DNA of 64,000 bases from a virus. The translations under genes were made by a program, and so were the position numbers. The notes below the pieces were generated by a model. That model saw nothing but the letters and a program-made list of their open reading frames with translations, did no database searches and was not told the DNA's origin. Location of the stretch: positions 1 to 64,000 of IMG/VR virus record IMGVR_UViG_3300029267_005544; one strand, given 5' to 3'. Positions 6,928 through 53,012 of this stretch are shown piece after piece (the first letter of the stretch is position 1; every line of letters begins with the position of its first letter).

Positions 6928-7227
6928 GTGGCATTGGTAGAATGGGTAGAATGCCCAGATCCAGAACCTGGGTCTTCAGCAAATTTTATTACATCTTGTT
7001 TTTTTGTTAAAAAAAAATCTCCATACTACCCAATAATAGCAATTGATGCTTATAAATCTAAATTACATCCAGGTGCAATCGATATACATATAACACAATG
7101 TGAGTATTGTAATAATGGCTATGAGTTGGATTGGGGTAGAACATGTGTTGAATATAAAGCATGGATTAAAATAGAAAGTGAAGAAATAAAAAAAAGAGCA
7201 ATAGAAAAAATAAAATATATGGAATAA
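6928..7227 (+). CDS. small zinc-knuckle hypothetical protein
   Basis: A 99-aa product starting at GTG 6928, 4-5 nt after an AAGGAGGT site. CEYCNNGYELDWGRTC near residues 58-73 contains a Cys pair plus a third Cys. The N-terminus VEWVECPD resembles that of the 181-aa product at 27493 (NNWVECPNGFC). No function is recognised. Confidence 0.55.
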   Translation: MALVEWVECPDPEPGSSANFITSCFFVKKKSPYYPIIAIDAYKSKLHPGAIDIHITQCEYCNNGYELDWGRTCVEYKAWIKIESEEIKKRAIEKIKYME

Positions 7228-7242
7228 AAATTGGAGTTGCTT

Positions 7243-7344
7243 ATGAATTTTAAGATAGCATTAGAATGGGTAGAAGATCAGTTAAATTTTAAAATAACTG
7301 ATTGGGATGAACGTAAAGTAAGTGTATCGGTAAACGATGTATAA
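7243..7344 (+). CDS. hypothetical 33-aa protein
   Basis: A short frame from ATG 7243 preceded by TTGGAG. Charged and amphipathic (ALEWVEDQLNFKITDWDE). It lies between two genes with no other coding candidate and has its own ribosome binding site. Confidence 0.4.
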   Translation: MNFKIALEWVEDQLNFKITDWDERKVSVSVNDV

Positions 7345-7371
7345 TTAAAATTATAAATAAGGAGAAAATAT

Positions 7372-7599
7372 GTGAAATTTTTTCATTTTGGTTCTAAAAT
7401 AAGCAAAAATTATGCATACGAATTGTCGTTTATGCATATATATCGATGTTTTGATGATGGAATTGATTTTATTAATTTTAATGTAGAATTGAGTATTTTC
7501 AAAGCAGATCACAATCCTACATTTTCAATTCTTTTTGTGTTTTTTAATATTGCCATTATTGATTTTACTATACATAATGTTAACCATTTGAAAGAATGA
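7372..7599 (+). CDS. hypothetical protein
   Basis: A 75-aa frame from GTG 7372 with AAGGAG upstream. Aromatic- and Ile/Asn-rich, ending with a hydrophobic stretch (FSILFVFFNIAIIDF) that could be a strand-rich core or a membrane helix. No family is recognised. Confidence 0.45.
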   Translation: MKFFHFGSKISKNYAYELSFMHIYRCFDDGIDFINFNVELSIFKADHNPTFSILFVFFNIAIIDFTIHNVNHLKE

Positions 7600-7678
7600 G
7601 GAGATGGAAAGTGTGATGGTAGGCCAGGCTCCAATCAACATTGACTCAAAATGAGCATGGGCAACAGAAGGGGGAATT

Positions 7679-8209
7679 ATGAATGATAATGAGTTTATAA
7701 AAAGTCTTCAGGAAATAAATACACCTGAAGAAATGATCAAATTTATGATACAATCTGTTGGTGATGGTATATTTGGAAACGATCCTTATTATGAAAAACT
7801 TAAAAATGCTGTAATTAACCGCGCCAGACAGATTTTCGATGGAGTTTCAAATCAGTATCCTGAACCATGGAAAACTATCAATGTCCGTATTAATAAAAAG
7901 ACTGGCGAGATTCATTGTGATGGTGATGAGGAAACTGTTCAATGGTTTCAAAAAAAAATACATGCAAATGGAAAAGTACATGATACTTTACAAAGTGTTG
8001 ATGCTCTTGATAATTTATCACTCGTTGCAAAAACTGCAGATGAGTTTGAATTATTGGAATATATTCAAATATTGGTTAAACAATGGGGAGAAAATCGTAA
8101 TAATATAGTCAATACTCTTTGCACAGTTTGTGGAAAATCTGGGGGTTTAACTGATTCAGAGTTGATTCATAAAAAGTGTCTTAAAAATATTAAAACTAAA
8201 GGAGAATAA
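7679..8209 (+). CDS. hypothetical protein with C-terminal Cys motif
   Basis: The 176-aa product has ATG at 7679 after an AGGGGG site. It is mostly helical, with a C-terminal CTVCGKSGGLTDSELIHKKC (three Cys and a His, residues about 146-165) that looks like a single zinc finger. It is separated by 1 nt from the next gene. Function unknown. Confidence 0.6.
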   Translation: MNDNEFIKSLQEINTPEEMIKFMIQSVGDGIFGNDPYYEKLKNAVINRARQIFDGVSNQYPEPWKTINVRINKKTGEIHCDGDEETVQWFQKKIHANGKVHDTLQSVDALDNLSLVAKTADEFELLEYIQILVKQWGENRNNIVNTLCTVCGKSGGLTDSELIHKKCLKNIKTKGE

Positions 8210-8210
8210 G

Positions 8211-8816
8211 TTGAGTTACCAAGTTCCAGGCGGTTCTGGTATAGGTACTGAAGATATTAAATCAGCTTGCGAGAATTACGGCTATGGTAATGTTATGTCA
8301 ACTGCTTCTATTTTATGGCAAAAAAAACTCGGAAGAAATGCAGGAGGCGCTTATTCTGTTGGGCCGTGTATAGCGTCTCTTGTACCATGCGGATGTAAAG
8401 ATGACTTTAGAACAAAATGTAACTGGTGTGCAGGTACGGGCAAATTAACAAAACATGTTAAATCGATTAAAGATTCAATGGAAAATAAAAAACATGAACC
8501 ATTGAAATATGAAATAGAAAAGTTTTTCGTTGTATCAACAGCCCATATATCATCCAGTGATAATGATGGTCTTCAATATGCTGTTAATAAAAATAATACG
8601 ATTGAAGATCAATCCCATCCTTGTAATATTGTTGTTTATCAATATGAATTTGGGTGGTTTATATGGATAGATCCTCAAATGACTTTCAATGATTATAAAG
8701 GGTATTCAAATGCATTCAAGCGTTTAATAACCATGGCAAAGAAACTTAAATGCCAATATCTTAAAATAGATCGGGATGGGCCACAATATAATAATCTTGA
8801 AACATTCGATTGGTAA
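8211..8816 (+). CDS. hypothetical zinc-binding protein
   Basis: A 201-aa product from TTG 8211 with AAAGGAG upstream. After a Gly-rich N-terminus it has CGCKDDFRTKCNWCAGTGK (residues about 63-81), a DnaJ-like CxxCxGxG-type knuckle. The C-terminal 120 residues are alpha/beta. It sits between the 176-aa gene and the endonuclease V-like gene. Confidence 0.6.
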   Translation: MSYQVPGGSGIGTEDIKSACENYGYGNVMSTASILWQKKLGRNAGGAYSVGPCIASLVPCGCKDDFRTKCNWCAGTGKLTKHVKSIKDSMENKKHEPLKYEIEKFFVVSTAHISSSDNDGLQYAVNKNNTIEDQSHPCNIVVYQYEFGWFIWIDPQMTFNDYKGYSNAFKRLITMAKKLKCQYLKIDRDGPQYNNLETFDW

Positions 8817-8819
8817 AAT

Positions 8820-9167
8820 ATGAGAATGTGGATGGTTCCTCCGCAAATATTATGCAGAAAACACCTTTTTGGAGAACATGGTGAAATTCATAAACACCGT
8901 CATAATTTTGTTAAAAAATATTCTATAAATGGTCGAATATTTCCAGTCGTTCAAATAGAGCCATCATCAATGTTAATTCGGCATGATGAATTGGCAGAAG
9001 AGATGTTGCGACGAGGATATAATCATAAATCACCTTATTATATGCCTGATATCTCATACCTTCCTGAAGAAATACGTAATTCCAAAGTTGATATTAATAA
9101 ATCGATTGAAGATCTTATTGATAGGTGTGAAGATTGCAAATTAAGAATAATGAATATAGGGGGATAA
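8820..9167 (+). CDS. T4 endonuclease V-like (pyrimidine dimer glycosylase family) protein
   Basis: The 115-aa protein begins with VPPQILCRKHLFGEHGEIHKH. It has RHDELAEEMLRRGYNHKSP (residues about 58-76), then DISYLPEEIR and a helical end. The order HLxxEHxE, RHxEL, LxRGxNxK, DIxxLPxE matches T4 DenV and the wider Pyr_excise-type family, which cleave at UV pyrimidine dimers by a glycosylase/AP-lyase reaction. It is shorter than DenV (138 aa) and lacks DenV's Thr at residue 2, so activity is uncertain. ATG start with weak ribosome binding. Confidence 0.58.
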   Translation: MRMWMVPPQILCRKHLFGEHGEIHKHRHNFVKKYSINGRIFPVVQIEPSSMLIRHDELAEEMLRRGYNHKSPYYMPDISYLPEEIRNSKVDINKSIEDLIDRCEDCKLRIMNIGG

Positions 9168-9168
9168 T

Positions 9169-9542
9169 GTGAAACCAAAAGATATACCTACCATGATACA
9201 AATCATGAAGGCTTCCCGGAAAAAAAAGTGATTCTGTTACAAGACGGCCTTTCTATACCTCATCTGAGATGTTGGGGTATTCGCCAGCGAGGCAACACTC
9301 TGGCATTTTTTACATGTATTGACAGGGTTCATTCAAACGGTTGGAAAGAACCGGAAGATTGGCGCGTTTCATACAGAAAAATGTTCGGTGCTATGTGGTG
9401 GGATGATAAAATTGAGCGGATGCTCGGCAACCCAGTGATAATTAAATACCGGTATGATACTTTCATGCCGTGGTCTACTCAGCACTTTTTCTCAGTTCGT
9501 GTATATATGCAATATTTTAACGAATTTGAAATAATTGATTAA
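9169..9542 (+). CDS. hypothetical protein, possible -1 frameshift or broken start
   Basis: The 104-aa ORF in frame from 9228 to 9542 (aromatic, alpha/beta) has no good start of its own; GTG 9228 overlaps a TGA and lacks a ribosome binding site. Upstream, GTG 9169 with AGGGGGATA starts a 20-codon frame ending AAA AAA AAG TGA. Its A AAA AAG heptamer (dnaX-type slippery site) precisely leads, by a -1 slip, into GTG ATT CTG of the long ORF. Alternatively the long frame is itself open back to 9168 with protein-like sequence (HDTNHEGFPEKKVILLQDG), and a 1-nt insertion after ATG 9167 has broken the start. Confidence 0.5.
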
Positions 9543-9551
9543 GGAGGATAA

Positions 9552-10013
9552 ATGAGTTTATATAATCAGATACTTGGAACACATCCATTTTTACAACACC
9601 TTTTCGCGTTACTTGGCCTTGGTGTAAATGAGGATGATGAATATTATGTCGGAAAGATACGGGATTTATACGTGATCAAGATTGAAGATATATTCAAAAT
9701 CATTTTGTATACCAGGAATGGCGGACCAAACAGAAAATCTTTTTCTTTGGTTTTCAAGAAATTAAGATCGCATCCGAATTACATCAAAGATTATGATTGT
9801 AATATCGATAATACATATGCGTATTTTGAATTCTCACCACCAAAAGATTGTTTAGATATCGTTCAGGAAATATATGATATAGCTCCTGAAGAAAGAGGTA
9901 CCAAACTCTTTATGCGGGTGTGTGATAATATGAGGAAAGGTAAGAAAGATCCAATAACAAATCGTGCCCTTGAGGTTGGCAAAAAAAATACTGAAACCAA
10001 TTTTAAATGGTGA
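9552..10013 (+). CDS. hypothetical protein
   Basis: A 153-aa alpha/beta protein, ATG 9552 with AAGGAGG 7 nt upstream. There are no recognised motifs; the C-terminus is basic (MRKGKKDPITNRALEVGKK). It is the last gene before promoter P2 and the Cas12-like gene, with 120 bp of intergenic sequence between. Confidence 0.6.
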   Translation: MSLYNQILGTHPFLQHLFALLGLGVNEDDEYYVGKIRDLYVIKIEDIFKIILYTRNGGPNRKSFSLVFKKLRSHPNYIKDYDCNIDNTYAYFEFSPPKDCLDIVQEIYDIAPEERGTKLFMRVCDNMRKGKKDPITNRALEVGKKNTETNFKW

Positions 10014-10061
10014 TATTGAAAATAGTGGTATTGTAGAAGTATAATTTCTCAAACATAAAAA

Positions 10062-10090
10062 CGTTATAATTTTGGCTTTTCTGGTATAAT
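10062..10090 (+). promoter_or_regulatory. promoter P2 for the Cas12-like gene (CGTTAT-17-TATAAT)
   Basis: The -35 CGTTAT (10062-10067), a 17-nt spacer ending CTGG, and a perfect TATAAT (10085-10090) match the block-wide design. Transcription would start near 10097, leaving a leader of about 37 nt before the ATG at 10134 with AAAGGAGGG upstream. The effector therefore has its own promoter. Confidence 0.72.
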
Positions 10091-10133
10091 AATAACAGTA
10101 AATAGCTTTAATAATTTATTAAAGGAGGGCTAG

Positions 10134-11348
10134 ATGGCCAAAGTTAAAAAAGCTAATACTGGCCTTAACAGAACGGTTGTATTTGAAGTCAGTGTTGCTA
10201 ATAATAATATTAAAAAACAAGTCATGGCGTCTATAGATAAATATAGAGCAGTGGCACGAAAGATGTATTCATCGGTTGCGATGGCAGCAACTGCAGGAGC
10301 AACAATCGAAGTAAAAAATGGTGATGTCAGGGTTAAACCTTATACTCAAAATTCAAAAGATATATTGTCAAAAGCATATAATGTGTCTGGAAAAGCTCAA
10401 TTTTATGAATTAAGAAATTTCGTATTAAAAGATCATGCTAATACATGGCAATCTGTAATATGGGATTCTTGCAGACTTGCAGTGGCTGGGACATGGAATC
10501 ATGCTGATCCCGAATTTTCTAAAGGTGAAAAGAAGGTTGGACGTGGCTGGTTATCACTCCAAGGCGCAAGAGCTTTTGGATTTTTCAATCGTTGTGGTAT
10601 AGGTTTACCAAATACAAAATCTATACAATTTGGTTCAAAAAGTATGACGATGAAATGGGACAAGGAAATTGATGATGTAACATTTTTCGTTGACAGTAAG
10701 CTTCCCGGGAATACATTCTGGAAATTTAAGAACATAAGAGATGGTGTATGGGAAAGGGGTACATGTTACATTGGGTGGAAGTATAAAAATATCGGTGGTG
10801 GTAAAAAAGTAAAAACACTTTATATAACAATGACCTATAAACTTCCAGAAAATTATTTCAATGAGGAATCAGGTGAAGGTGTTATGATTGTTGAGTTTAC
10901 AGATGATCCTGAAAACGGAATCGTCATGTATTCTGATGATAAGTTCCATTATTCCGACAAAATAAGTGTGTATGAGGCTATAGCATGGAATAAGCAACTC
11001 AATGTTGTAAAGGATTACTACAAAAAACAAAGAGCATCAGTTGGTGGTAGAGATAAGCAGTGGGGTCTCAACCAAAGTCTCATGGTTATTAGTAACAAAA
11101 GTGAAAATTTGACCAAAAGGAGAATTAACGGCAAAAAGCATCGGAATCATATATGGGCCAACAGAATAGTGGCGAGAGTTAGACAATGGGGTATGGGTGT
11201 TGTTGTACTCAAAGATTTTCCTGACGGCCTATTAATTGATCAGGAATGGTCTATGTTTGAGCTTAAAGAAATATTGAAGTACAAACTTAGAGAAATTGGG
11301 TGTGAGTTGAAAACCTATAATACCCCAAAAGAAGAAGAAGCTGCTTAG
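10134..11348 (+). CDS. nuclease-dead Cas12/TnpB-like RNA-guided effector (candidate)
   Basis: The 404-aa protein has the layout of a TnpB/Cas12 C-terminal half. A beta-strand leader (TLYITMTYKLP, 228-238) is followed by a RuvC-I-like strand (VMIVEFTDDPENGIVMYSDD, 250-269) in which the catalytic Asp position appears to be Glu254. A Lys/Arg helix HRNHIWANRIVARVRQWG (336-353) comes next, then a RuvC-II-like strand GVVVLKDF (355-362) where the usual Glu appears to be Lys360. The final helix WSMFELKEILKYKLREIG (372-389) closely resembles the TnpB block before the zinc finger. The protein ends 15 residues later, so the zinc finger and RuvC-III Asp are missing. I infer RNA-guided DNA binding without cleavage. 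Residues 15-60 look like the start of a wedge domain. ATG with AAAGGAGGG; TAG stop. A CRISPR array follows directly. Alternatives are an exapted TnpB repressor or a diverged type V effector. Confidence 0.66.
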   Translation: MAKVKKANTGLNRTVVFEVSVANNNIKKQVMASIDKYRAVARKMYSSVAMAATAGATIEVKNGDVRVKPYTQNSKDILSKAYNVSGKAQFYELRNFVLKDHANTWQSVIWDSCRLAVAGTWNHADPEFSKGEKKVGRGWLSLQGARAFGFFNRCGIGLPNTKSIQFGSKSMTMKWDKEIDDVTFFVDSKLPGNTFWKFKNIRDGVWERGTCYIGWKYKNIGGGKKVKTLYITMTYKLPENYFNEESGEGVMIVEFTDDPENGIVMYSDDKFHYSDKISVYEAIAWNKQLNVVKDYYKKQRASVGGRDKQWGLNQSLMVISNKSENLTKRRINGKKHRNHIWANRIVARVRQWGMGVVVLKDFPDGLLIDQEWSMFELKEILKYKLREIGCELKTYNTPKEEEAA

Positions 11349-11553: not shown

Positions 11554-11945
11554 GTTTCTTCCGCGCGCGCGAGGGAAACTGGGATTTGCATTTAATTTCA
11601 ACTACCTGCGCAAGTATGCTCCGCGCGCGCGGGGGAAACTGGATATTCGGCCGGGAGAGGGCGAAACAGCTGTAGTATGCTCCGCGCGCGCGAGGGAAAC
11701 TGGGTTACTTCGTACCTCTATTCCATCATATCCTAGTATTCTCCGCGCGCGCGATGGAAACTGGGGAAATTTCCAATCATACTGGCGTGACCATAGTATT
11801 CTCCGCGCGCGCGAGGAAAACTGGGTTTCTTTTATATACAAAAGGGTGCAATATTGTATTCTCCGCGCGCGCGAGGGAAACTGGCCCCCCAGCATTTGAA
11901 CTTGCCGTTATCGTTCGTTTCTTTCGCGCGCGCGAGGGAAACTGG
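11554..11945 (+). CRISPR. CRISPR array: 7 repeats, 6 unique spacers
   Basis: Seven repeats of about 29 nt have conserved 22-nt cores at 11561, 11621, 11682, 11743, 11803, 11863 and 11924. Each core is an alternating (CG)n tract followed by AGGGAAACTGG, preceded by GTATTCT or a variant. The single-base variants are G for A in copy 2, T for G in copy 4, A for G in copy 5 and T for C at the start of copy 7. The six spacers are 31-32 nt, all different in sequence and composition. Forward orientation is assumed because the effector reads this way. No cas1, cas2 or cas4 is in the window. Short ORFs that read through the repeats are artefacts. Confidence 0.9.
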
Positions 11946-14634: not shown

Positions 14635-14709
14635 GCGCCTGTAGCTCAGTGTTAGAGCAGTGACCTCTAAAATCACTGGTCGGTGGTTAGAATCCACCCA
14701 GGCGCTCCA
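14635..14709 (+). tRNA. tRNA-Sup(CTA), amber suppressor
   Basis: A cloverleaf can be built by hand: acceptor GCGCCTG/CAGGCGC (7 of 7 pairs), D stem GCTC/GAGC, anticodon stem GTGAC/ATCAC (last pair C-A mismatched), loop CTCTAAA with anticodon CTA, T stem GGTGG/CCACC, and encoded CCA. The anticodon reads UAG. Oddities are a short D loop without GG and TTAGAAT in the T loop. A phage amber suppressor suggests regulated readthrough or partial TAG recoding. Several genes here still end in TAG. Confidence 0.75.
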
Positions 14710-17431: not shown

Positions 17432-17494
17432 AATTATGGATAATGTAATTATTTTTTTTTAAATAATTAAAATTCTAATAAATATATAAGGTTT

Positions 17495-17675
17495 TAGATG
17501 GTGTTTCGCCATCAATATTTTGTAATAAGGCCTCGATAACCTGGGAACGGCCACAGTCCGCCACGTCGTTGGCCTTGACCTCTTCAGCAAGCTGAAGAAT
17601 TCAAGGCCACTCGGTGGCTCCCTTATGGCCTTACTCCCTGGTTATCTCACCTTCGTGTCTCAATATTAGTTATAT
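17495..17675 (+). ncRNA. structured RNA element, copy B, own promoter
   Basis: The segment between P3 and the next terminator is non-coding. It contains a hairpin GATGG/CCATC, a long hairpin GGCCTTGA ... TCAAGGCC (about 17570-17608) with an inner CTTCAG/CTGAAG, a GCCAC/GTGGC hairpin, and an enclosing near-perfect pair GATAACCTGGGA / TCCCTGGTTATC. The blocks CGGTGGCT, TCTCACCTT and TTAGTTATATATTAA are shared with copy A at 15.4 kb. A free-standing small RNA is the best reading. Confidence 0.6.
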
Positions 17676-17685
17676 ATTAATAATT

Positions 17686-49860: not shown

Positions 49861-50582
49861 ATCCGGATTTGTATCTGGAATATTTTGGTATACGCATCTT
49901 CCGTGCGTATGATGATGAATGGTATGACCAACCATTAACCTATTGGTTTACAACATCTAATTTTGACGATAGTCAAGATTGGCAATTTGATGCTAGAGAG
50001 CATGTTAGTATAGTAAATATAGCAGCTGGTAGAGATGCGCATTGTAGTGATGATATTGCTCTAAAAGAAGGAATAATGCGCGCAATAGAGCTTCAGGAGC
50101 TTAAGCTTCCTGTTGATGAAGGTGTTGACTACCCATTCAAAAGAGGGACGTTTAACTGGTATGTGAATCATCCGGGTGAATTTATCCAGTCACTTTCAAA
50201 AGCGATAATGAAAGCTGATATGGGAAACAGGTCAAAGCTTAATAAAATATACAGGCATGCAATGTTGGCAAATGCAATAGGAAATTGGGATAAAATTGTT
50301 GATGGAAATATAATTGACGAACCGCTTGGTGATAACACTAAGGTTTCAGTAATAAACCCTGAAAATCCTGTTCATGGGTGCTTCTTCTGGTATCTGCATC
50401 ATTCAGGTTCATTTGTAACGCATATGGCAAATACAATAAGATATGCTGATAATAACAACCGTGAATTAATAAGAATAGTTTATCCGCAAATGGTTGCTGC
50501 ATATGATTTAAGTAATTGGAATCAAATTCCAGAAAATTTTACCCCAGTATATAATGCGGAGAATGTTGGTGAAAGAGGGTAG
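49842..50582 (+). CDS. hypothetical protein with internal duplication
   Basis: The 246-aa product has two repeats of about 60 residues: FNWYVNHPGEFIQSLSKAIMKADMGN at about 105 and FFWYLHHSGSFVTHMANTIRYADNNN at about 182, each followed by a helix ending NWDKI or NWNQI. This is an ancient internal duplication of a helical unit. ATG with GAGGAGG. Function unknown. Confidence 0.62.
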   Translation: MPYKWVDPDLYLEYFGIRIFRAYDDEWYDQPLTYWFTTSNFDDSQDWQFDAREHVSIVNIAAGRDAHCSDDIALKEGIMRAIELQELKLPVDEGVDYPFKRGTFNWYVNHPGEFIQSLSKAIMKADMGNRSKLNKIYRHAMLANAIGNWDKIVDGNIIDEPLGDNTKVSVINPENPVHGCFFWYLHHSGSFVTHMANTIRYADNNNRELIRIVYPQMVAAYDLSNWNQIPENFTPVYNAENVGERG

Positions 50583-50745
50583 ATTAAATATAATTCTATC
50601 AATTCCAGCCGATTTTCTCGAAAAATTTATCCATTTCATAAATAATATAAATGCTTTAAATAGCGATAAAGGGCAACCTGTAATAGTTGAAAAAATTTAT
50701 TATAACAAGGAGGATTCTATTGAGGATAAGGCTGAAAGTGAATAG
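50569..50745 (+). CDS. hypothetical protein
   Basis: A 58-aa product; GTG 50569 (or ATG 50554 or 50563) with GGAG nearby. Overlaps the upstream gene. Stops at TAG. Confidence 0.45.
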   Translation: MKEGRLNIILSIPADFLEKFIHFINNINALNSDKGQPVIVEKIYYNKEDSIEDKAESE

Positions 50746-51103
50746 TTATAAACATTATGGTGGTAACTATTCAGAACAATTAGAAGCAATAGATGGTCAA
50801 TGGGTTAATATTGATACAACATTTTTACACAATGATCAATTAAATACAATGCCAATAATCGGGGTAACAAATATTGGTCTTAGAATATATCAAAAAGATA
50901 TAGAAGAAATCCAAAATGATGAACGTGTTGGCAGATGGAGGTGCGATTATTGTGGTTCATGGACTGATACTGGAAAACCCTGTCAAAATTGTGATAAAGG
51001 AACTTCTTATATGAGTGAATTTTTTCCTGGAACAAAAAGAAGTCCAAGAACAGTTCAGGAAGAAGTTGACGGAATGTTAGAAGATATATTTCAGGAAACA
51101 TAA
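50720..51103 (+). CDS. zinc-ribbon protein
   Basis: A 127-aa product from TTG 50720 after AAGGAGG. The C-terminal half has CDYCGSWTDTGKPCQNC, a four-Cys ribbon. Last gene of the plus-strand block. Confidence 0.58.
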   Translation: MRIRLKVNSYKHYGGNYSEQLEAIDGQWVNIDTTFLHNDQLNTMPIIGVTNIGLRIYQKDIEEIQNDERVGRWRCDYCGSWTDTGKPCQNCDKGTSYMSEFFPGTKRSPRTVQEEVDGMLEDIFQET

Positions 51104-51126
51104 TAAATTAATGTATAAAGTCTTAA

Positions 51127-51155
51127 TGTTATTTTATATATAAAAAAGTAATAAC
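51127..51155 (+). promoter_or_regulatory. promoter P15 (TGTTAT-17-AATAAC) for the giant RNA
   Basis: TGTTAT 51127-51132, 17 nt, AATAAC 51150-51155. There is no gene between here and the bidirectional terminator at 52.1 kb, so the transcript is a non-coding RNA. Confidence 0.6.
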
Positions 51156-51161
51156 TATTAT

Positions 51162-52092
51162 AGTTGATGGATTAATTATTTATTTTACCCTTTTGTTTTC
51201 TCAAAGAATATAAATGCGGCGTTGTTTCGATGTCGTTTACTTATATCATTTATACTCAGCCACGAAGCTCGCTCTTGCAGAGCGTCGCTTCAGGCTGGTC
51301 GCTGATTTACTGAAGTAAATCAAAACGCGACACGTATAAATGATACTGGGCGCTCGGCCGACCGCGGGTCCGGATGCTGTTGCGGTCCGGGGTTCAAACC
51401 TGTGACCGATGCTTGTTGAGGGGAACTTTGGCACCGCTCCCGGAAAAGTTAGAACGGTAAGAAGTTTAATATCGGTATGATACTTTCCGTCGGGCCTCGC
51501 GAAACTGCTCGAGCAATAGTTTGAGAATTATTTTCCAAGTATGCCCCAACATCGCCGCTCCGGCGCTATGGTGGCCCTTGAAAAGTAAAAAAGTTTTTTA
51601 CTACTCAAGGGTAGTTGCAGGGGCACATACTGCATTAGAGATGCGGGGTAACCCTTCCCCGCATCTTCTATTAATTTGATATTTAACTCCAAGATTTTAC
51701 ACTTGATGTTTCATCAAGGTATAAAATACCACTTCGTGGTACCGTCGAGGCGGGCTCGAGCGTGGGGCGTCGGAGGCGATGGTAATTCTGCCGCTCCATC
51801 CCCCGACGACTGCAGGTGCATGCTTGCGCGGTTACTGGGATCTGGGTCCGGATGGGCACGAACGTACGCGACGGACAACAAGATTGAGCTATATTTAAGT
51901 TGGAGTATTTTCTTCTAAGATTTTTAAATTCTATTGTTACGATAGAATATAAAAATTTTCCTATTATTAGCCACCAGTTTCCTACTGGTGGCTACAGCTC
52001 GGTGAATTCATCTCGAGATACCATGGTCTTGGACTGCAGCTGTAGCTGGATTTACGGTTACTAAACCTGGTCAAATTTAAGTTAGAAGAAAT
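51162..52092 (+). ncRNA. giant structured non-coding RNA (about 930 nt)
   Basis: No supported ORF. The region is GC-rich against an AT-rich genome and full of long stems: TATCATTTATAC (51244-51255) / GTATAAATGATA (51334-51345); AGTATGCCCC (51538) / GGGGCACATACT (51620); CCCTTGA/TCAAGGG (51575/51605); AGATGCGGGG (51639) / CCCCGCATCT (51657); TACCACTTCGTGGTA (51727); CGTCGG...CCGACG (51768/51803) enclosing GATGG/CCATC; GCCACCAGT (51970) / ACTGGTGGC (51984). The size, location in a phage and density of stems recall giant phage RNAs such as GOLLD or ROOL, though I see no diagnostic match to either. Confidence 0.62.
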
Positions 52093-52130
52093 AAAAAAAA
52101 AGAGAGTAAAATTTAACTCTCTTTTTTTTT
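52093..52130. terminator. bidirectional terminator between convergent blocks
   Basis: A9 - AGAGAGT - loop - ACTCTCT - T9: works in both directions, ending the plus-strand RNA and the minus-strand tail operon. Confidence 0.85.
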
Positions 52131-52152
52131 AGCTATTAGAAAAATTATTGAA

Positions 52153-52965
52153 TTAACCGTCGATTGCTGTTTGATCCCAATTGGTTTGCTCAGATACGAT
52201 ATTAAGATCGGCAAGATTCTCACCTTTAACATAATCTTTCGATGCAGCTGTATTAATAGGTCTACAGCGAACAAATTCCATATTGATTGATTCTGTAAGC
52301 ACATTCATATTGGCTGAAATACCCATATTCAATGTGCTAACACGACATCCTTCAAAATATGTTTGTCCAACAGTATCATCTTGTTGATCTTTGAAATAAA
52401 ATGCGAGCCCAACGGGCTGTTCAAAGAAAGAAGAGGCTAGATTCATGGCAAGATTTCCAGAACCAATATTGGCGAATTTTTGATATGTTTCGGCGCCATC
52501 AACATAATAAGGGTTTGAAGTAAATTTGGCAAATTTCTTATCTTGTGTAGCAAAATCTGCTTTTACCTCACCCATATATATTGCCTTAAGAAGGCTTGGT
52601 CCGTCAAAAAATACACGACTTAAACTTATTCCACCCACGGTACGACCAGGTATGATATAGCTGAGCTTTGATCCAATTTCAAAAATACGGCTCAAGGGCT
52701 TGTTCATACTTATCTGAGCTGTTTCGATAAGGCCGATAGGTACAACTCTGAACCCGTCAGGGTCTTCCGAAGCTTTATCGAGATCAGAAGGGCCGGCAGC
52801 GATAAGAACGGTTCCCGATTCAACTATATCATTTATAGCAATCGATTCTTTTGTGTCAATACCATGAGGGGAAATATAAGCCTGAGATACATGAGCATCT
52901 TCCCAGTCCCAACCGCCAGATTGGTCTATTAACTCTTGCAAATCCACTTTAGGTAGAGGTGGCAT
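52153..52965 (-). CDS. tail tube-like protein
   Basis: The 270-aa product is read from ATG 52965, 8 nt after AAGGAGGA; an ATG at 52971 is too close to the site. It is beta-rich, with AINDIVESGTVLIAAGP, SLLKAIYMGEV and a beta C-terminal half. It lies 47 bp downstream of the sheath gene, exactly where contractile-tail phages place the tube gene. Length is above T4 gp19 (163 aa) but usual for jumbo phage tubes. It would polymerise to form the inner tube. Assignment is mainly by position and composition. Confidence 0.6.
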   Translation of the reverse strand: MPPLPKVDLQELIDQSGGWDWEDAHVSQAYISPHGIDTKESIAINDIVESGTVLIAAGPSDLDKASEDPDGFRVVPIGLIETAQISMNKPLSRIFEIGSKLSYIIPGRTVGGISLSRVFFDGPSLLKAIYMGEVKADFATQDKKFAKFTSNPYYVDGAETYQKFANIGSGNLAMNLASSFFEQPVGLAFYFKDQQDDTVGQTYFEGCRVSTLNMGISANMNVLTESINMEFVRCRPINTAASKDYVKGENLADLNIVSEQTNWDQTAIDG

Positions 52966-53012
52966 ATGCATTTCCTCCTTTAATTAATATTCTATATTGA
53001 ATTGATTACCAT

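Follow-up and report, generated by a model that had tools for sequence, protein, structure and literature searches.

The region examined here, positions 51,162–52,092, lies in a window of 64,000 nucleotides (the whole stretch of DNA that was analysed), which is part of a 186,450-base virus record (G000). A promoter-like element stands upstream, structured units follow one another in tandem, and the gene at 52,153–52,971 (minus strand), convergent with the array RNA, has distant similarity to a structural protein of Salmonella phage Arash. The features are as follows.

51,126–51,163, plus strand: promoter-like element, ATGTTATTT-N15-AATAACTATTATAG, upstream of the array; its single occurrence in G000.
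51,198–51,527, plus strand: module M1; closing inverted repeat (a1/a2) 51,198–51,205 with 51,520–51,527, candidate priming G at 51,206, triloop hairpin 51,216–51,236; matched by the module descriptor and kept in loci L002 and L003.
51,538–51,631, plus strand: M2, a compact module-like element with closing helix, triloop hairpin and short insert, recognised by its fold and by counterparts in L002 and L003; membership uncertain.
51,686–51,906, plus strand: module M3; closing helix ACUCCAA/UUGGAGU, candidate priming G at 51,693, triloop hairpin 51,702–51,718, hypervariable insert; matched by the descriptor.
51,909–52,091, plus strand: module M4; closing helix UUUCUUCUAA/UUAGAAGAAA, candidate priming G at 51,919, triloop hairpin 51,928–51,948; matched by the descriptor.
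52,092–52,131, no strand assigned: bidirectional terminator-like hairpin, a strong A/T hairpin separating the array from convergent virion genes.

Two further features of the window were noted in passing. Seven copies of a GC-rich repeat (approximately CTCCGCGCGCGCGAGGGAAACTGG) with ~60-base spacing and unlike sequence between them (11,560–11,945) look like a phage-carried CRISPR array. The tRNA at 14,635–14,709 (anticodon CTA; ARAGORN label tRNA-Pyl) is a possible amber suppressor, yet nearby genes end in TAG (e.g. 50,580–50,582).

The original prediction had described the region as one giant non-coding RNA, rich in GC and with at least seven long stems, running from its own promoter to a bidirectional terminator. 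Its structured and non-coding character was borne out. The fold energy of 51,162–52,092 was −335.9 kcal/mol, compared with −271.5 ± 7.4 kcal/mol for 20 dinucleotide shuffles (z = −8.67; 0/20 as low), more than seven long stems were present, and eight related phage loci each keep a structured RNA at the corresponding position. Open reading frames inside the region were just 52–80 aa, overlapping on both strands. Since all were short and mostly found no overlap in relatives, a coding reading of the array was rejected; the conserved frame that would have spoken for coding was not seen across the relatives, in which array length varies freely. The terminator-like hairpin lies where a terminator had been proposed. 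The proposed promoter likewise has a counterpart in the ATGTTATTT-N15-AATAACTATTATAG element, which recurs at the orthologous array RNA in G001, G002, G003 and G008. Two more matches (G007:56,820 and G008:123,226) have no detected module nearby, and the element may therefore be a general promoter of these phages. GC content was raised relative to the genome (~0.40–0.46 in the array's two 500-base intervals, 0.36 genome-wide), the increase being located in the variable inserts, but it is not high in absolute terms. Rfam searches with all three module sites of G000 (see below), at gathering and at permissive thresholds (E ≤ 10), returned no relevant family, msr, GOLLD and ROOL included, in agreement with the earlier failure to match the RNA to GOLLD or ROOL. 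A blastn search of the array against cultured phages gave no match, and a strict DNA pattern run over IMG/VR recovered already known relatives only.

What did not hold was the single giant RNA. The region consists instead of independent units of ~180–330 nt, each with its own closing inverted repeat and msr-type hairpin; the original prediction had overlooked that the stems form repeated modules, with relatives elsewhere in the window and in the genome. Three clear modules and one compact module-like element stand in tandem. The shared anatomy begins and ends with the a1/a2 inverted repeat, which ends in ...AA or ...UA and whose helix is 7–14 bp in nearly all modules. A G follows immediately after a1, and next comes a hairpin of ~7–10 bp whose triloop, in most cases G(UUU)C, is closed by G-C. 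Between this hairpin and a2 lie, in that order, a structured insert that varies and a motif close to UCNAUUUUAG (about UNAAG). The context of the candidate priming G is AAG or UAG followed by varied bases, not the usual TAGC, and the inserts of this array are branched rather than single long hairpins. Own-arm pairing held at 132 of 133 positions (19 distinct helices), and 0/10,000 re-pairings were as good, a statistic that is supportive but not independent because pairing had helped to delimit the modules. Similarly, the G after a1 was present in every descriptor module, but the descriptor itself demands it. Orthologues of M4 (n = 3) carried compensatory changes in both helices. M2 was missed by the module descriptor and fits the module anatomy poorly.

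Relatives were reached via IMG/VR homologues of the convergent gene at 52,153–52,971. Eight further loci were obtained (L002, L003, L004, L007, L008, L010, L012 and L016; L008 and L010 are nearly identical), all with a structured RNA of very different sequence at the equivalent position. Module anatomy was seen in nine loci: the window and the two loci nearest to it have three clear modules plus the compact element, the remaining loci two or three modules. When G000, G001 and G002 were compared, module cores were 71–95% identical and the neighbouring gene 83–84%, whereas inserts were 45–68% identical against 41–53% for shuffled inserts. For M3 the core was 85–95% and the insert 45–54% identical across the three; M1 inserts retained some similarity, M3 and M4 inserts little. 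At the sequence level, the inserts diverge to near-random identity on a conserved scaffold. Searching the rest of the phage genomes with the inserts gave nothing beyond chance-level matches. In G001, a transposon-like insert separates units of the array.

Several observations concern the surroundings of these arrays. By eye, a TnpB-like protein-coding stretch (~7,220–9,180) interrupts the L002 array between M2 and M3, an IscB-like gene lies ~2 kb upstream of the array in L003, and a TnpB-like gene lies downstream in L004. A small thioredoxin-like ORF (CxxC) is found just upstream of the array in L002, L003, L007, L012 and L016; the window array is preceded instead by a zinc-ribbon-like ORF (50,687–51,103), with no thioredoxin-like ORF.

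A module descriptor was built from the first array loci and run on whole contigs, with shuffled contigs (3-base blocks) as control. It found ~56 modules in 11 contigs, 37 of them outside the arrays used to build it, where about one was expected. All contigs with modules are metagenomic and from one phage group. The modules of G000 occupy three sites (17,481–17,678; 51.2–52.1 kb; 113,910–115,101), and the features beyond the array, together with the reverse transcriptase (RT) gene taken up below, are these.

17,481–17,678, plus strand: single-module RNA, intergenic; its insert is a long imperfect hairpin; candidate priming G at 17,490, triloop hairpin 17,497–17,513; descriptor match, fold z = −7.0.
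90,556–91,626 of G000, outside the window: retron-type RT gene (356 aa), separated by ~39 kb from the array and by ~22 kb from the closest of the other module sites.
113,910–115,101 of G000: run of five modules (1.2 kb) directly after a gene resembling the Gp3-like family, found by the descriptor.

Fold z values of the units at 17.5 kb and 113.9–115.1 kb ranged from −6 to −14.5, and each has a short hairpin followed mostly by one long imperfect hairpin. The msd form with one long hairpin is thus present at 17.5 kb and mostly at 113.9–115.1 kb, while the 51–52 kb inserts are branched. Neither an array nor modules above the shuffled rate were found in the cultured relatives Vibrio phage D181 and Salmonella phage Arash. 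Arash (L018) has two ~0.9–1 kb stretches without annotated genes beside the spike gene (8,143–9,048 and 9,932–10,929); no module was found in either, and the opposite strand looks coding in places. A very loose module scan barely beat the shuffles; it gave two adjacent module-like units in G016, whose RT is 56% identical. The results given here rest on the specific descriptors only.

The retron-like anatomy of the RNA modules predicted an RT, which was searched for and found. A single RT per genome was present in six of the eight module-bearing contigs (G000, G001, G003, G004, G006 and G008). The remaining two, G002 (149 kb) and G007 (117 kb), are shorter and yielded none. The metagenome that gave G002 also contains a 42-kb contig, G009, with the RT and three modules; G009 and G002 may derive from a single phage. 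Contigs G010 and G012, which were reached through the RT, have modules too. The module-free controls, Vibrio phage D181 and Salmonella phage Arash, yielded no RT. Conversely, G017 and G018 have RTs (40–41% identical) and gave no module with the descriptors. The protein had its best scores with retron models, NCBIfam retron_St85_RT (2.4e-62, below its cut-off) and PADLOC RT_XIII (7e-66), and its best PDB match was the Ec86 retron RT (1.6e-28). Its NAxxH and YADD motifs are invariant, with ICG, VCG or TCG in place of the usual VTG. An AlphaFold model was of low confidence (pLDDT 56, six sequences). In the RT tree, 17 phage sequences grouped as a single clade (96/89 support), separate from their bacterial relatives, to which they are at most 32% identical. 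Retron-like RTs are rare in phages: only 27 of 50,697 records matched this RT at all. In six of six genomes, a DHH-family phosphoesterase gene precedes the RT gene and an RNase HI gene follows it; the operon consists of DHH, RT and RNase HI only, with no recognisable effector. Retron RTs have no RNase H of their own and depend on RNase H1 (PMC8989520), and a neighbouring phage RNase HI therefore makes sense.

In G008 (L016), module triloops are TAA, AAA, CAC, TAC or TAT, elsewhere mostly TTT. Its RT is an early branch within the group of close phage RTs, a pattern that would suit a joint change of hairpin loop and enzyme.

Retrons are known as compact bacterial cassettes in which one template RNA lies beside one RT, and mostly for anti-phage defence. 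No known bacterial retron has been described with many dispersed templates and one distant RT. The region very likely consists of tandem retron-type msr-msd templates that are served in trans by the distant RT, together with six more units at two sites. The modules co-occur with a retron-type RT and RNase HI, which supports this reading. Against it count the distance of the RT from the templates, the replacement of TAGC and VTG, the branched array inserts and the lack of an Rfam msr match, as do the modules of G002 and G007, where no RT was found, and the RTs of G017 and G018, where no module was.

The proposed mechanism runs as follows. The array would be transcribed from its own promoter. 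Pairing of a1 with a2 would set the G after a1 beside the template start, as judged from anatomy rather than chemistry. By analogy with its family, the RT would recognise the short UUU-type triloop hairpin, prime at the 2′-OH of this G and copy part of the insert into DNA. Template removal would then fall to the phage RNase HI encoded next to the RT, with possible trimming of the product by the DHH phosphoesterase. Each insert would in this way yield an RNA-DNA molecule (msDNA) through the RT acting in trans, and one phage would make about ten distinct msDNAs. We consider it probable that, in this lineage of large phages, one trans-acting RT, with RNase HI and the DHH nuclease, turns about ten dispersed, fast-diversifying templates per genome into a cocktail of msDNAs in the course of infection, with which the phage acts on its host, in contrast to bacterial use against phages. 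Fast insert diversification on a constant scaffold suggests that the set probably targets variable host factors; it fits an arms race with such factors, or a role that needs structure alone (e.g. MutS sequestration). We speculate that the msDNAs counter retron-like or ssDNA-sensing defences, for example as decoys or antidotes, a counter-defence role that is put forward tentatively and stands first in our order of preference, followed by titration of host proteins and then by exclusion of other phages.

The two other roles invoke the same machinery. Structured, mismatched ssDNA hairpins could sequester MutS or further host proteins that bind or repair DNA and so favour phage recombination or mutation. 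Overproduced mismatched msDNA does titrate MutS in E. coli, raising mutation and recombination (PMC6868368), and both the long imperfect hairpins and the freedom of the insert sequence to drift would suit this role. We nevertheless regard titration as rather unlikely, as it would not by itself require ten different templates and the 51–52 kb inserts are not long hairpins. The machinery might alternatively act as a phage-borne defence retron that excludes competing phages, just as effector-bearing bacterial retrons, some of which sit in prophages, abort phage infection (PMC6868368, PMC8867640). The operon carries no recognisable effector, however, and known defence retrons have one msr-msd rather than about ten, which makes exclusion improbable.

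Structured RNAs such as phage regulatory RNAs could be unrelated to an RT that is present by coincidence, the link between the two being drawn from sequence. This is very improbable, considering that the RT was found on prediction, is missing from the module-free control phages and belongs to a kind rare in phages. Still harder to credit is one giant ornate RNA of GOLLD or ROOL type, folding or assembling as a single particle. The length, the structure, the phage setting and the single promoter-like element would agree with it, but GOLLD and ROOL went unmatched in Rfam, the array is made of closed repeat units, two to four per relative, lone units occur elsewhere, and the transposon-like insert splits the G001 array between units; the co-occurring RT would be left unexplained. 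Neither a cage nor a multimer is necessary to explain the array. The least probable reading of all is a diversity-generating or recombination-donor system, in which inserts are copied and then written into other genes. An RT together with hypervariable inserts might suggest it, but the RT, with its NAxxH, is of the retron and not the DGR type, and the inserts match nothing elsewhere in the phage genomes, so that recombination donors were rejected.

We favour trans-served retron templates. This lineage of large phages appears to own retron machinery in which the RT stands apart from many templates and an RNase HI is supplied by the phage. If so, a retron RT can serve a template library in trans, phages would seem to put multicopy ssDNA to use, and the RNA signature could be used to find retron templates that do not lie beside an RT.

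Among known systems, diversity-generating retroelements likewise combine a phage-borne RT with a non-coding template RNA, but here the RT is of the retron class (NAxxH) and no template/variable repeat pair was found. GOLLD and ROOL are also long structured non-coding RNAs of unknown role encoded by phages; the present RNA differs in having no Rfam match, in being a modular array rather than one fold and in its link to an RT (PMC12286853). In retrons, the ends of the msr-msd RNA are complementary, the priming G comes right behind the first arm, the msr hairpin measures 7–10 bp and the msd is structured (PMC6868368). The msr loop typically has 3–10 nt, and the msd forms one long hairpin, often with mismatches. 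The phage system shares with retrons (Retron-Eco1 (Ec86), St85-type RTs) the complementary a1/a2 ends, the G after the first arm, the 7–10 bp UUU-loop msr hairpin, the structured insert, a retron-class RT with NAxxH and YADD, and the RNase H requirement. The stem bound by RT-Eco1 is 8 bp long and carries a UUU loop (PMC6868368); the phage module hairpins resemble it. Unlike retrons, which are compact cassettes, it has its RT tens of kb from the templates, of which each genome holds about ten, some in arrays and some alone. It also brings a DHH gene and an RNase HI of its own and sits in a phage genome; no effector was seen, ICG, VCG or TCG stands for VTG, and AAG or UAG for TAGC. Among open-licence papers, no report of phage-borne retrons with many trans templates was found, and the nearest precedent there is Retron-Nex1 (Ne160), with several duplicated msr-msd repeats and no RT within a kilobase (PMC6868368). 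The phage array resembles it in having multiple msr-msd units without an RT within a kilobase; Retron-Nex1 is bacterial and its repeats are described as duplicates, whereas the phage units share a scaffold only, carry unrelated inserts, occupy three sites and have an identified RT.
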